A stretch of 64,000 bases of DNA from Treponema brennaborense. Lineage in GTDB: Bacteria > Spirochaetota > Spirochaetia > Treponematales > Treponemataceae. Positions within the stretch are counted from its first letter, which is position 1, and the number at the start of each line of letters is the position of its first letter. The stretch is from assembly GCA_023666275.1 (NCBI GenBank), contig JAMPCJ010000007.1, positions 62,001 through 126,000 of the forward strand, in the 5' to 3' direction. The position numbers and the translations under genes were made by a program. Below, piece by piece: positions 14,306 through 49,593 of the stretch. The notes below the pieces were generated by a model. The model had not been told where the DNA came from. It did no database searches and saw nothing but the letters and a program-made list of their open reading frames with translations.

Positions 14306-15295
14306 TCAGTCCCATACAAGGAAAAAATCATCCCGATGCGCTTTCAGATACTGCGCTTTTTTCTGTGCAAGAATAACCGCAAGACGATTCGCCGGATCCG
14401 CATTCGGATCGATTGCCAGGGCGCTGTCCAGTGCGGCATCGAAACCGGCTGCATCCTGCGCCGGTATGCAGAAAGACTGCGCATACGTGATGTACGGTCC
14501 CGGCGTTTTTCCGCCGGATATTTCCAAACACTGTTCATACGCATAGCGGGCACGCTCGCTGTTCCCGCCGAAATCAGCCGGAGCTGCGGCATAAAACGCA
14601 CATAATATTTCCCAAATAGCGCCGTTATTGAAATCACTCTGCAAAGCGGCGGCTTTTTCGAGCAAGGCGACGGCGCCGGAAACGGTAGAAAGTATCTTTA
14701 CGTCCAGCGGATCCACACTGAACGCACCGAGCCAGCCTGCCCCGCACCAATACGCATTTGAAACATCGGACAGTTTTAAATTCGCGAGTGCTTTTTCGAT
14801 TCTGCCGGAATCTCCGCTTTGTATGTCGGCGGAAAAACCGTGATAGCGCAGTTCAAAAGCCTGCAGCGCATAATCCCGTCCGCGCAGATAATGCATTTTC
14901 GCACGCACTATTTCCTGCTGCTGAAGCTCGAACTGTTCCAGCGGCAGCTGATCCGCGGGCTGCTGAACAAACACATTTGCATACATGACATACAAAGACG
15001 CCGTCATCGCAGCCAATCCCTGATGGGCGGGATTTTTCGCCGACAGTATTTCATATAATTTCAAGGCAGTGGGGAAAAAATCCGCCATCAGTACCGGATC
15101 CGACTCGCCGGTAAGCGGAATCATCATGTCGTCCGCCGATTCTCCCGCAGCAACGGGAACGCCTTTTTTATCTATGCCCGCAAGCTGTGTAGACAGCGAA
15201 TTCATCACGGCATTTTTCGTTGCCGCGCATGATGAAAAAAACAAAGCGGCGCAAAAAAAACAAAAACGCACAACAATACGTCTGGAAAAAAACAT
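14306..15295 (-). CDS. tatT: TRAP-associated TPR lipoprotein (TatT-like)
   Basis: Start chosen at ATG 15295, giving about 329 aa that begin MFFSRRIVVRFCFFCAALFF followed by a lipobox ending SSC (lipidated Cys about residue 23). An upstream frame extension to 15355 lacks a signal peptide. The body is helical with TPR-like repeats (about residues 60-320, e.g. ALKLYEILSAKNPAHQGLAA). TatT is a periplasmic lipoprotein that forms a trimer with TatP and may carry hydrophobic ligands. First gene of the TRAP operon; 76 bases separate it from tatP. Confidence 0.88.
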   Translation of the reverse strand: MFFSRRIVVRFCFFCAALFFSSCAATKNAVMNSLSTQLAGIDKKGVPVAAGESADDMMIPLTGESDPVLMADFFPTALKLYEILSAKNPAHQGLAAMTASLYVMYANVFVQQPADQLPLEQFELQQQEIVRAKMHYLRGRDYALQAFELRYHGFSADIQSGDSGRIEKALANLKLSDVSNAYWCGAGWLGAFSVDPLDVKILSTVSGAVALLEKAAALQSDFNNGAIWEILCAFYAAAPADFGGNSERARYAYEQCLEISGGKTPGPYITYAQSFCIPAQDAAGFDAALDSALAIDPNADPANRLAVILAQKKAQYLKAHRDDFFLVWD

Positions 15296-15391
15296 AATAT
15301 TGCAATTATATGAAAGAAAAATAAAAAAAACAAGCCGGCAGCTGCATTTCCGCACAATGCGAAATCAGCCGAAAAACAGCACTCGGATGCT

Positions 15392-15566
15392 TTGTCAGCT
15401 CCGTTAACGGAATGCCGCCGTTACGGGAGCTGACAGAATGCGCTGTTAATGAGGCTAACGGAAACGCGTCCGTTAATAGGACTAACGGAATGCCACCGTT
15501 AAGGACACTAACGGAAACATTCCGTTAGCGGTACTAACAGAACGCAGCCGTTAAGGACACTAACGG
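15392..15566. repeat. Tandem array of seven 19-bp palindromes, 26-bp period
   Basis: Units begin at 15392, 15418, 15443, 15470, 15496, 15522 and 15548. Each is an inverted repeat of the form YYGTYA-N7-TRACRG. The best copies are CCGTTA-N7-TAACGG (15470, 15496, 15548). Copies are separated by 6-8 base spacers that mostly start AA. Period is 26 for the last four units and 25-27 for the earlier ones. Units 1 and 2 also pair with each other as a 17-bp stem (15394-15434). The array lies between the divergent TRAP and mnmA units. Confidence 0.85.
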
Positions 15567-15570
15567 CTGT

Positions 15571-15660
15571 GATGAGAGACCTTTAAACATCACGATGACG
15601 AAGGACTCTCATCACGATGAAAGGCCTTTAAACATCACGGAGGTGAAGCATTCTCCGCAG
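15571..15660. repeat. 45-bp direct tandem duplication
   Basis: Two adjacent 45-base copies, 15571-15615 and 15616-15660, share the central stretch CCTTTAAACATCACG exactly and differ at about a quarter of positions. They fill the interval between the palindrome array and mnmA. A frame in phase with mnmA begins inside copy 1, so it is not excluded that part of this is translated. Confidence 0.7.
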
Positions 15661-15777: not shown

Positions 15778-16959
15778 ATGATGTTTTTTTCTGATGCGGA
15801 ACTGCCGGCGCCCGGTCAGACGGTCGTCGTGGGAATGTCAGGCGGCGTGGATTCGACATTGACCGCTTTGCTGCTGAAAGACCGAGGATGCCGCGTTATC
15901 GGCGCGACAATGTCCGTCTGGAATAACGATTTGCCGCTGCCGGCTTCCGCAAATGCTATGCGGAATTCCTGTTACGATCCCCACGAACAAAAGGACATTG
16001 ACGCCTGCGCCGATTTCTGCGCGGAAAATTCCATTGAATATCAGGTAATTGACGTCCGCGAAGCATACAAGACAGAAGTCTTGGATTATTTCAAGGCGGA
16101 ATACCGAGCCGGACGCACGCCGAATCCCTGCATCAAATGCAATCCGTCGGTAAAATTCGGCGCGCTTTTAAAAGGCGTAAGAGAAAAAAACATCGACTTC
16201 GATTTTTTCTGCACCGGACATTACGCCCGTTTAGTCCGCCCGTCGTCAGGCATAGCAGCGGTGTATTATGACGGTCCTTTTTCCGCAGACGGCGCGGACT
16301 CAAAACCGCTTTTGATTGCTCCTGCGGAAGACAAGGCAAAAGACCAGACGTATTTTTTATACCGGATTCCTTCCGATGTGCTTGAAAAAGTCCGCTTCCC
16401 GCTGGGAATGCTGCGCAAAGAAGATGTTTTTTCCATGGCACGCAGCCGCGGTTTGACTGCGGCGGAACGCCCCGAAAGCCAGGATTTTATACCGAGTGAT
16501 TTTTTCGATGCTCTTTTCGCGGATAAACCGTCGGTGCCCGGCGACATTGTCGATTTGGACGGACACGTTATCGGCAGACACCGCGGCATCGAGCATTATA
16601 CAATCGGACAGCGCCGCGGTCTCGGCGTCAGCGCGCCGTATCCGCTGTATGTATACGGGATAGATGCCGAACACAACACCGTTATACTCGCCCGCGACGA
16701 CGATCTGCTGTGCCGCGGGCTGGATGCGGAACAATGCGTTTGGGCGGGCAATTATACGCCCGAAAGAGCATTCCGCGCGGAAGTAAAAATCCGCCTTGCC
16801 GCAAAACCCGTGCCGGCACTTATTTCGCCGAAACCTGACGGTTCATGCAGCATGACATTCGACACGCCGCAGCGGGCAGTTGCCCCCGGACAGTCCGCGG
16901 TAGTATATTTGAAAGGAATACAAGCAGGAGGCGGGATAATTTCCCGTGCAATAAAATGA
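15778..16959 (+). CDS. mnmA: tRNA-specific 2-thiouridylase MnmA (variant active site)
   Basis: About 393 aa from ATG 15778. The frame opens at 15595 but its first 60 residues do not resemble the family. No good ribosome-binding site marks the start. N-type ATP-pyrophosphatase loop: VVGMSGGVDSTLTALLL. Nucleophile region: GRTPNPCIKCNPSVKFGAL, with the catalytic Cys in KCN. FCTGHYARL follows. The usual second cysteine motif, SQDICFV or SxGICFI, appears here as PESQDFIPSDF, with no Cys. MnmA thiolates U34 of Lys/Glu/Gln tRNAs using sulfur relayed from a cysteine desulfurase, and that enzyme is encoded next. Confidence 0.88.
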   Translation: MMFFSDAELPAPGQTVVVGMSGGVDSTLTALLLKDRGCRVIGATMSVWNNDLPLPASANAMRNSCYDPHEQKDIDACADFCAENSIEYQVIDVREAYKTEVLDYFKAEYRAGRTPNPCIKCNPSVKFGALLKGVREKNIDFDFFCTGHYARLVRPSSGIAAVYYDGPFSADGADSKPLLIAPAEDKAKDQTYFLYRIPSDVLEKVRFPLGMLRKEDVFSMARSRGLTAAERPESQDFIPSDFFDALFADKPSVPGDIVDLDGHVIGRHRGIEHYTIGQRRGLGVSAPYPLYVYGIDAEHNTVILARDDDLLCRGLDAEQCVWAGNYTPERAFRAEVKIRLAAKPVPALISPKPDGSCSMTFDTPQRAVAPGQSAVVYLKGIQAGGGIISRAIK

Positions 16960-44334: not shown

Positions 44335-46182
44335 TTAGTTGGAATACGTTATCGTACCGTCGGTGCAGATTATTTGCGTACCGGCGGGCAAGATCTCATC
44401 TCCCTTGTTAATCGCATTCCACTGTGCTTGCGTGCCGTCGTAGTGTATCGTTACGGCGGTGCAGTTCTTGAACGCAGCCTTAACTATTTCCGTTACACTC
44501 GCAGGGATTGTTACACTCGTCAAATTACGGCAATCATAGAACGCACCTTTCCCGATTTCCGTTACGCCGTCGGGAATCGTTACGCTTGTCAAAGCGGGGC
44601 AATCACGGAACGCGTACCTATAGATTGATTTTATGGTATCGGATATCTTCACAGTTTCTTTCGCAGACGGATACGCAATCAATTCTGTTTTGTCTTTATT
44701 GTACAAAATACCGTTTTCGGCAGAATACTTGGAATTGCCCGTTACTACCGTGATGTTTGAAAGATTCGTGCAGCCACTGAATACGCCGTAGTTGATTTTT
44801 TCCACCGTATCGGGAATTGTTACGCTCGTCAAAGCGCTACAGTTATGGAACACGAACTTGTAGATTGAGTTTATGGTATTGGGTATCTCCACAGTTTCTT
44901 TTGCGGACGGATAAGCAATCAACTCCGTTTTGTCTTTATTGTACAGAATACCGTTTTCGGCGGAAAAGTTTTGATTGGCAGGGTCAACCGTAATACTTGT
45001 AAGTTTCGTACAGCCCCCGAATGGATTCCATTCTATAGTTGTTACACTCGCAGGTATCGTTACGCTTGTCAGGTTCCGGCATTTTCCGAACACGCCAGCG
45101 TTGATGCTCGTTACTTCGACGGGGATTATTATGCTTTCTGCGGAATTGTTATTCCAGCCGGTCAGCACGCAGTTGCTGCTGATTGCCGCGCCGGCTGCCA
45201 CAGCTTCGTCATACTCTTTGGAAGTACGTTTGAATTTATATGAGTCGGTTACACTTTTGATTGTATCGAGGGTAAGCAAGCTGATTATTTCTTGTACTTG
45301 CGGAGTTACCGTGTCGTTGTACTTCAACCAAGTTCCGCTCAAGCCGTTTATCTTGGTAAGTTGGGCGCAGTTTTTGAATACACTTCTTTCGATCAATTCC
45401 ACAGAATCGGGAATCGTTACACTTGTCAGTTCGGCGCAGTCGAGGAACGCGAGGGTGCCGATTCCCTTTATGTATTCGGGTATCGTAATATCTCCCGATA
45501 CCGACGGCCACGCGTACAGTTTATTCCTGTCTTTTTCAAAAAATATTTTCCCGTCATCGCTGACGGCATATTTGGTATTGCCCTCTGCCACCGAAAATCT
45601 TGTGAGACTGACGCAGCCGGGAAATGGATTGCCGTCGTGATTCACCGCACTTGCGGGAATCGCGATACTTGTCAAAGCAGTACAGTTCTGGAACGCATAT
45701 TGACCGATTTTCGTTACGCCCTCGGGGATTGTTACAGCGGTCAAGTCGGTGCAGCCGCAGAACGCGTATTTGCCGATTGTTTTTACCGTGGAAGCCATTT
45801 TTTCGCCGAGGTTGATGTTTCCCGACGCGGAAGGATAGGCAATCAATTCCGTTTTGTCTTTATTGTACAAAATGCCGTTTTCGGCGGAATAGTGGGAATT
45901 GCCCTCGGCTACCGTGATGCTTGAGAGGTTTGTGCAGCCGATAAACGGATTGTATTCTATTTTCGTTACACTCGCGGGAATCGTAATGCTTGTCATTTCC
46001 GTGCGGTCTTTGTATGCCCCGCTTGCGATGCTCGTTGTGCCGTCGGGTATCGTTACCTCGGCGCGTTCTTTTTCCGGAATTACTTCTTCCGGCTCGTTAC
46101 TGCATGAGGTGAAGACTATCCCCCCCCACGAAGTCAGCAATAAGGCGGCAAGTACCGCCGAAAGTTTTTTGCATTTTTTCAT
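44335..46182 (-). CDS. BspA/TpLRR-type leucine-rich-repeat lipoprotein, in frame (phase ON)
   Basis: A 615-aa surface protein. Signal peptide MKKCKKLSAVLAALLLTSW continues through Gly-Gly to lipobox VFTSC (lipidated Cys about residue 27). The rest is tandem TpLRR repeats of about 23 residues with the pattern LTSVTIPxSVTxIxxxAFxxC, interrupted by YNKDKTELIAYPSA blocks. The C-terminus ends in an AQWNAINKG segment typical of such proteins. These bind host or bacterial surfaces in oral treponemes and Bacteroidetes. A run of eight G (46120-46127) codes for Trp-Gly-Gly in the signal peptide and keeps the frame. Ribosome-binding site AGGAGG precedes the ATG. Confidence 0.92.
   Translation of the reverse strand: MKKCKKLSAVLAALLLTSWGGIVFTSCSNEPEEVIPEKERAEVTIPDGTTSIASGAYKDRTEMTSITIPASVTKIEYNPFIGCTNLSSITVAEGNSHYSAENGILYNKDKTELIAYPSASGNINLGEKMASTVKTIGKYAFCGCTDLTAVTIPEGVTKIGQYAFQNCTALTSIAIPASAVNHDGNPFPGCVSLTRFSVAEGNTKYAVSDDGKIFFEKDRNKLYAWPSVSGDITIPEYIKGIGTLAFLDCAELTSVTIPDSVELIERSVFKNCAQLTKINGLSGTWLKYNDTVTPQVQEIISLLTLDTIKSVTDSYKFKRTSKEYDEAVAAGAAISSNCVLTGWNNNSAESIIIPVEVTSINAGVFGKCRNLTSVTIPASVTTIEWNPFGGCTKLTSITVDPANQNFSAENGILYNKDKTELIAYPSAKETVEIPNTINSIYKFVFHNCSALTSVTIPDTVEKINYGVFSGCTNLSNITVVTGNSKYSAENGILYNKDKTELIAYPSAKETVKISDTIKSIYRYAFRDCPALTSVTIPDGVTEIGKGAFYDCRNLTSVTIPASVTEIVKAAFKNCTAVTIHYDGTQAQWNAINKGDEILPAGTQIICTDGTITYSN
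46120..46127 (-). repeat. Poly-G tract (G8) in the signal peptide of LRR gene 1
   Basis: Eight G on the coding strand (C on the plus strand) lie within the codons for Trp-Gly-Gly. With eight G the frame continues into the lipobox. Gain or loss of one base would stop expression. Confidence 0.85.
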
Positions 46183-46438: not shown

Positions 46439-46573
46439 GCGCTTCATTACGCTTTAAGCAGTCTGCACGACTATGCTTGAGCAGACTGCTCCATTATGCT
46501 TTAGCGGTTTGCTCGACTACGCTGCAGCACATTGCTCCATTATGCTTTAGCAGTCCGCTCGATTATGCTTGAG
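46439..46573. repeat. 23-bp tandem minisatellite (about six copies)
   Basis: Alternating units of the form CTCCATTATGCTTTAGCNG and CTCGACTATGCTTGAGCAG, each about 23 bases, repeat from about 46439 to 46573 (paired units start CATTA at 46445, 46492 and 46538). The last unit overlaps the 3' end of the DUF4469 gene and encodes its final residues. Confidence 0.75.
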
Positions 46574-47282
46574 CGGCAATCTCCAGCGCTTTGGAAAACC
46601 GTCCTGTTTTCAGCGTCTTTCCTGCCTGCCGATTTCCCAGCAGCTTGGTGCGGACTTCCGCGTAATAGGTTCCCGCCGCAATGTCTGCGGGCACCATTAC
46701 CATAACGCGGGCGGGTTTGTTTTCCGCGGCTGTGCCGCAGCGCACCGTTTCTCCGCCGTCTTCCGGCACCAGAAACACTCCCTGCGCGCTATCCTGCGCA
46801 TCAAACTTGAGCCGCGCTCCCGTCAGCCGCAGGATTCCTCCCGCACTCACTGCCGAATTGACCGCGCCTGTAACAATGTCCGCCGCTTCCGCGATGTACG
46901 GGCCGGTGTTCGCGGCTTCGGTTTTTTCCGTCTTTACCGATTTTGCCGCTTCCCGAAGCTGTGCTCCCGCGCTGACATTCACGTTTACCGTGTGGCGCGC
47001 CTTGTTAAAGCTGTCGCCCGCGCCGTCGAACACGCCCGAAATCCCGAACGATGTATTGAAAAGCGGCGTAGTAAGCGCGCAGCCTTCCGCCGTCAGCGAC
47101 GCGCAGACTTCCGTGTACACTTGCAGCACCGCCGCCGCGTCTGCCTTTGTCAGCGTACTGCCGCGTTTCAGCATCAGTTCGATAATTTCGTCCTGCGAAT
47201 ATGAGCGCACGTCCTGTGTCTGCGCCATATAGTCGTTCGGCTCCGCCGTCAGCAGGTTTTCTCTCAGCGAATACTTCAGCAT
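46563..47282 (-). CDS. HU-like DNA-binding domain + DUF4469-type protein
   Basis: A 239-aa protein. Residues about 25-115 form an HU/IHF-like fold: IELMLKRGSTLTKADAAAVL, then GCALTTPLFNTSFGISGVF. Residues about 140-235 form a beta-rich domain (GGILRLTGARLKFDAQDSAQ, RVMVMVPADIAAGTYYAEVR) that matches DUF4469/Ig-like modules known from Bacteroidetes. A nucleoid or surface role cannot be distinguished here. Its gene has the same leader hairpin as the LRR lipoproteins. The extreme C-terminus (about IAAQA) is encoded by a minisatellite repeat, so its length may vary. Confidence 0.75.
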   Translation of the reverse strand: MLKYSLRENLLTAEPNDYMAQTQDVRSYSQDEIIELMLKRGSTLTKADAAAVLQVYTEVCASLTAEGCALTTPLFNTSFGISGVFDGAGDSFNKARHTVNVNVSAGAQLREAAKSVKTEKTEAANTGPYIAEAADIVTGAVNSAVSAGGILRLTGARLKFDAQDSAQGVFLVPEDGGETVRCGTAAENKPARVMVMVPADIAAGTYYAEVRTKLLGNRQAGKTLKTGRFSKALEIAAQA

Positions 47283-49354: not shown

Positions 49355-49403
49355 AACGGCGCCTCATTCGGTACGCGGAGTGCAAGAACTGAACGCGCCC
49401 GTT
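49355..49403 (+). repeat. 48-bp palindromic element, copy G
   Basis: Plus orientation, 49 bases because of one extra C near the right end. A GCATCGAA-like arm and CTTCGAGCC precede it at 49332-49354. Confidence 0.75.
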
Positions 49404-49421
49404 ACGGAAACCCCAAACGCA

Positions 49422-49496
49422 CCGAACGAGCGCATGCGAGTTCGGGCAAACGGCGCCGCGAACAGCATGCGAATTGCGACAAGTGAATGCGCCGTT
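49422..49496 (+). repeat. 48-bp palindromic element, copy H, with hairpin
   Basis: Core 49449-49496. Hairpin CCGAAC ... GTTCGG at 49422-49445. Confidence 0.8.
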
Positions 49497-49514
49497 ACCG
49501 GCAACCTAAGCACA

Positions 49515-49589
49515 CCGAACGAGCGCATGCGAGTTCGGGCAAACGGCGCCACAGCCAATACTTGGACTGCAAGCGATAAACGCGCCGTT
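49515..49589 (+). repeat. 48-bp palindromic element, copy I, with hairpin
   Basis: Core 49542-49589. The hairpin and left end are identical to copy H over 37 bases, so H and I are a recent tandem duplication with a period of about 93 bases. Copies G, H and I fill the whole 49246-49593 interval. Confidence 0.8.
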
Positions 49590-49593
49590 ACCG

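Follow-up and report, generated by a model that had tools for sequence, protein, structure and literature searches.

The palindrome array between the TRAP transporter operon and mnmA in this Treponema brennaborense genome is probably one of eight copies of a composite binding-site element, whose home would be the control region of a defence-linked operon. The window analyzed here (64,000 nucleotides) corresponds to C16:62001-126000 of a 2.35 Mb genome in 18 contigs. All copies are described in a common orientation, from module B to module A, which places the window copy on the minus strand. The features of the window that bear on the array are the following:

15392..15566, minus strand: module A, seven YYGTTAR-N5-YTAACRG-type palindromes with a period of 26 (25-27)
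15567..15641, minus strand: module B, about three 23-bp GATGTTTAAAGGTCTCTCATC-type units (covariance-model R1 match 15549-15646, minus strand)
15305..15333, minus strand: promoter-like TTGTTT-N17-TATAAT on the A side, ahead of TAtT (consensus match only)
14306..15298, minus strand: TAtT, first gene of the TRAP operon (PF16811, E=3.9e-90)
15778..16959, plus strand: mnmA, on the B side (PF03054, E=2.5e-54; start codon inferred from sequence)

An earlier note on this DNA had described seven palindromes between divergent operons, and its positions proved correct to the base. On the plus strand the palindromes start at 15392, 15418, 15443, 15470, 15496, 15522, and 15548, giving successive spacings of 26, 25, 27, 26, 26, and 26. 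As that note also held, the last four units lie exactly 26 bases apart, three units (15470, 15496, and 15548) are exact CCGTTA-N7-TAACGG, and the array separates a TRAP operon from mnmA, nifS-like, and nifU-like genes; the former (TAtT-DctP-DctQM) runs on the minus strand and the latter on the plus strand. The pattern YYGTYA-N7-TRACRR had seven non-overlapping matches in the 64-kb window, all within the array, versus a mean of 0.18 and a maximum of 2 in dinucleotide shuffles, and a chance origin was therefore rejected. TRF recovered the same tandem array (15405-15566, period 26), and no Rfam covariance model matched the array at its gathering score. The earlier note omitted module B, which lies directly to the right of the array, as well as the seven other places in the genome where the composite occurs.

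Module B consists, in each copy, of approximately three 23-bp units (GATG-TTTAAAGG-TNTCT-CATC), which are joined at CATCRYGATG palindromes. It adjoins module A in 8/8 genome copies and is absent elsewhere in the genome; all matches to a search pattern that held no part of module A and allowed up to one mismatch fell at the eight arrays.

The eight arrays of the genome lie at C6:15254, C10:153365, C10:293594, C10:414867, C11:352799, C12:274171, C16:77392 (the window copy), and C17:98307, and the array is thus not private to the TRAP/mnmA gap. All eight are intergenic with a 26-bp period, and their number of A units varies from 3 to 7. Neighbors of the other copies include trpGD, tRNA-Pro, a ZIP transporter, secG, lipoproteins, and XRE-ImmA. 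The genes adjoining the dispersed copies share no common function, which counts against our preferred explanation. Solitary sites were not enriched, with loose-pattern singles outside the arrays about as frequent as matches to a reversed control pattern; single sites at background level are unusual for an ordinary regulon and likewise count against it. Three of the eight copies are found at the 3′ side of paralogous lipoprotein genes and have no strong promoter on the A side, a further point against it. The lipoproteins at L006 6457-7089, L007 6606-7217, and L011 6388-8151, with array copies at their 3′ side, have a common leader (KKTTRIAAL-AAAALIFG), and parts of the non-coding flank of the lipoprotein-linked copies (C6/C12) look duplicated along with the genes.

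Across the 38 units of the genome, the GTTA/TAAC half-sites had a mean pairwise identity of 0.887, the outer two bases of each arm 0.697, and the five central bases 0.314, versus 0.272 expected from composition. The same held for neighboring units within one array (half-sites 0.892 versus cores 0.333). GTTA and TAAC half-sites alternate, with an inner gap of 7 nt in every unit and, over all arrays, between-unit gaps of 6 nt (n = 3), 7 nt (n = 27), or 8 nt (n = 4). Because arrays were also reached through module B, the half-site constraint is not just an effect of the search pattern. With half-sites ~89% identical and cores near random (31% versus 27% expected), the array is therefore selected recognition DNA; the neutral satellite that the earlier note had kept as an alternative is rejected, and its observation that the arms are kept as the N7 varies, as in binding-site arrays, is borne out. 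Fixed spacing around a free center is the kind of trace that a dimeric DNA-binding protein would leave, and module A may well be a row of GTTAR-N5-YTAAC dimer sites placed every 26 bp.

Exact arrays were not found in 38 relatives from the family and order. When 274 family genomes were searched by pattern and by covariance model, strong arrays emerged in five more genomes, all of one other genus: two loci in G122 (a Treponema sp. MAG, contig record JAAVAM010000018.1), two in G267, two in G204, three in G176, and two, one of them weak, in G128. In all five the sequence of the copies has changed and the architecture is kept, which supplies the conservation in relatives on which the earlier note had made its binding-site reading depend. 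One copy is orthologous between G122 and G267; its B module differs from that of the window genome in stem sequence and has the same GTTTAAAG-N3-TCTC core. The weak covariance-model matches L129, L130, and L132 fall within or next to coding sequence and are probably due to chance. Among pattern-scan matches in contigs of other genomes, many were due to chance or were different palindromes (Streptomyces, Planococcus). In G276 and G270 (L032 1383-1490, L131 1740-1835), GTTAC-N5-GTAAC palindromes form rows at 22-26 bp that lack module B; the row in L032 is directly followed by TATAAT, and these rows may belong to a related class of operators.

In five species, one copy adjoins an XRE-ImmA/IrrE-DUF4469 operon or its remnant, and the control region of that operon is the apparent home of the composite block. 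The home copies with their genes are:

Own C11 copy: XRE, M78 (ImmA/IrrE), and HU/DUF4469 genes, with module A facing the XRE gene
G267 copy: gene order as in the own C11 copy, with a full HsdM opposite
G204 copy: modules B and A, then XRE, ImmA, and DUF4469
G122 copy: a DUF4469 gene alone, ~480 bases beyond module A
G128 copy: a DUF4469 fragment adjoining the array

On the other side of the C11 array lies an hsdM-like start with no family match, seen for 23 residues only because the contig ends there. The HU domain of the C11 protein falls below the Pfam cut-off (19.2 versus 30 bits), which counts against the preferred explanation. The DUF4469 subfamily or a fragment of it occurred in 6/6 strong-array genomes versus 19/274 overall (hypergeometric p ~5e-8, uncorrected for phylogeny), a count for which the limits of the subfamily were drawn with the list already in view and which includes G128 only through its fragment. 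G177, which carries a two-unit A array plus B without a DUF4469 match at E<=1e-12, counts against the preferred explanation. XRE types at the loci of this operon are unrelated (those of C11 and G267 do not align) and the DUF4469 proteins are conserved, at 44-60% identity to the C11 protein across loci, and because of this module B is more likely to be read by DUF4469 than by XRE. The subfamily profile matches a solved structure, 4FMR (E=5e-7), which is named only as an uncharacterised hypothetical protein. DUF4469 has no assigned function in Pfam, and a literature search for it found no paper mentioning it. HU-HIG proteins were reportedly predicted by Burroughs and colleagues in 2017 to act in biological conflicts. 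A phage or plasmid origin was considered and rejected: the A array had no match in viral contigs, where the DUF4469 query had no relative either, and the latter gave one weak match in plasmid records and one in phage records.

The window holds other repeats as well. A different palindrome array, of AGC-N5-GCT type with a period of 23, occupies 46441-46585. It overlaps a further HU-DNA_bdg + DUF4469 gene (46563-47282, minus strand) at that gene's 3′ end, precedes a BspA-like lipoprotein gene, and has a partial second copy at G000 C18:2696-2753. A 240-bp tandem repeat (44573-45071) lies within the BspA-like gene 44335-46182, and a 93-bp tandem repeat spans 49381-49593 (2.3 copies).

Where the operon is present and the A array absent, B-type repeats were found upstream of the operon, significantly so versus shuffles in G087, G287, G269, and G263, and by eye, not significantly by count, in G268, G168, and G247. 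Throughout the 960 kb examined, clustered B units occurred only at A/B elements or upstream of the XRE-ImmA-DUF4469 operon. Other palindromes take this place in some genomes: 22-bp arrays (GGATACGTTATCCATAAGCTAT) upstream of the operon in G005 and G042, and TCCAC..GTGGA palindromes on Treponema saccharophilum plasmid pTS1 (L210 3340-3500), between hsdR and an HTH/hypothetical/DUF4469 set. The DUF4469 home locus of G176 also has a different palindrome array (CACCATCRTGAYGGTGC), a finding that counts against the preferred explanation. In G287 (L133 1756-2225), several adjoining arrays of 22-23 bp (GATAATCCAAGCTACGTTAACA, GAAACGAAACGTTTCATGTATT, and ATCTGCGGTCTCTCCCCTCGCAC) have one GTTA-N7-TAAC unit between them. 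Individual cases of defence genes opposite or next to the operon include HsdM (G267), HsdR (T. saccharophilum), type III Mod + Res (G042), type III Mod (G284), GmrSD (G287), a Z1/MzaC-like gene (G247), and Vsr (G204), and in G005 the neighbor is a Fic protein modelled in PADLOC.

These observations suggest a mechanism in which the element belongs upstream of the operon for the XRE repressor, the protease of ImmA/IrrE type, and the HU-like DUF4469 protein. This operon often lies opposite restriction-modification (R-M) or other defence genes. Module B is a row of TGTTTAAAGGTNTCTC-type units at a 23-bp pitch. The operon's DNA-binding protein is predicted to bind the sites cooperatively and to control adjacent promoters, the candidate readers being DUF4469, most likely, for B, and DUF4469 or a repressor for A. 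Copies elsewhere, the window's included, would have arisen by duplication and would bring other promoters under the same protein, in the window most plausibly that of the TRAP operon.

The window copy itself has neither an XRE-ImmA-DUF4469 operon nor an R-M gene beside it. Promoter-like sequences with z >=3 (consensus matches only) were found on the A side at 7/18 loci and on the B side at 2/18, and the window's TTGTTT-N17-TATAAT starts 58 bases past the array end. Since A ends often face promoter-like sequence, and the window's does so before TAtT, regulation of the TRAP operon by this array is possible, and control of that operon in trans by the home operon's protein would be the most likely role of the window copy. 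From the earlier note's overall reading, a binding-site-type array stands, and specific regulation of the two flanking operons is not supported.

The most probable alternative, which we nonetheless regard as unlikely, is a BOX- or MITE-like dispersed repeat, spread by an unknown transposase and without a dedicated host reader, the home locus being an insertion hot spot of a defence island. The copies have the fixed-module-plus-tandem anatomy of such repeats, with 3-7 units, lie in intergenic positions next to unrelated genes, occur in few relatives, and resemble the boxA-(boxB)n-boxC arrangement (PMC3049150). However, half-site constraint around saturated cores is unexpected for a neutral repeat, and inspection and flank comparison of the copies revealed no terminal inverted repeats, target-site duplications, or, the lipoprotein duplicates excepted, shared flanks. 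B-type repeats also precede the same operon in genomes without A arrays. A genome search for a Y1_Tnp (RAYT) transposase found none, and RAYT/REP identity was rejected; REP/BIME elements are alike in their short alternating palindromes between genes and differ from the strict pitch seen here. The comparison with the BOX elements of Streptococcus pneumoniae was one of architecture, and the two share a dispersed intergenic fixed module with variable tandem units (PMC3049150), whereas the present element has 26-bp units, eight copies, no recognisable ends, randomised centers with kept arms, and a tie to one operon.

A chromosome-organisation or partition-type site, at which an HU-like protein nucleates and folds or anchors the chromosome as at parS or matS, would account for several dispersed multi-site arrays, the lack of regulon coherence, and the HU-like partner protein. 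Three copies look like segmental duplicates, however, and nearly all members of the family lack the element, whereas segregation sites are conserved; this reading is improbable.

A structured RNA read from B to A, in which a chain of hairpins serves as a leader or mRNA-stability element, is very doubtful. In its favor, the sequence folds much more stably than shuffles (z -8.8), the B-to-A strand of the A array is the better folding one across the eight copies of this genome, and there are 48 G.U pairs to 16 A.C pairs. Yet the GTTA/TAAC stem bases hardly ever change in a compensatory way, and covariation is absent at the closing pair 7/13 (A..C seen 3 times versus ~3.3 expected from column counts). 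The loop is fixed in length and free in sequence, the reverse of most RNA hairpins; promoter-like sites often follow the array; and the strand preference is absent in G122, G267, and module B. The G.U excess, and with it the strand asymmetry, may be a founder effect of the unit.

A dedicated operator for the TRAP and mnmA operons only, as the earlier note proposed, fits an array that lies between divergent operons and has promoter-like sites to its left and right, but is scarcely credible because the composite recurs at seven other sites beside unrelated genes, and, among those neighbors that were identified, the copies of other species had neither TRAP nor mnmA genes. Integron attC sites and CRISPR were dropped on anatomy, the pitch being too short and spacers or cassette ORFs lacking.

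Returning to the preferred reading of a composite binding-site element homed at a defence-linked operon, the closest analogy is with the controller boxes of R-M systems, and the array is best read as working in a similar way. Controller protein C.Csp231I reads CTAAG-N5-CTTAG, and its two sites need a fixed spacer length; these boxes and the units of module A are both 15-bp inverted repeats with 5-bp arms and a free 5-nt center (PMC4321490). In both, sites recur at a length-critical spacing and, at the home loci, precede an XRE-type gene that may lie beside R-M genes: palindromes lie upstream of a small XRE-type gene at the own C11, G267, and G204 copies and not at the window copy, and the candidate R-M genes by the array are HsdM, opposite in G267, and the 23-residue hsdM-like start at C11, with none at the window copy. 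Unlike R-M controller boxes, the arrays have up to seven sites at a 26-bp pitch, a second module with a 23-bp pitch, a different half-site sequence, and copies away from R-M genes, and the operon adds an ImmA-like protease and a DUF4469 protein. We do not class the array as a controller box because its reader is putative and the window copy lacks an R-M gene. ICEBs1-type ImmR-ImmA control likewise pairs adjacent genes for an XRE-type repressor and an ImmA-family protease (PMC6540685) but differs from the present operon, where the third gene is an HU-like DUF4469 and several neighbors are restriction genes; no integrase or conjugation genes were recognised near the own C11 copy.

The arrays give DUF4469 proteins candidate DNA targets of defined pitch and make the family directly testable. 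We tentatively raise the possibility, for which the odds are modest, of a new control system of spirochaetes. In it, precisely spaced palindromes would be read by an HU-like DUF4469 protein whose gene stands with those of an XRE repressor and an ImmA-type protease beside restriction systems, and rows of palindromes scattered over the chromosome would link housekeeping promoters to the cell's state of defence or stress. If true, a regulator tied to defence would have carried its binding arrays to ordinary promoters, an example of how a chromosomal regulon can be acquired by a selfish or defence operon.
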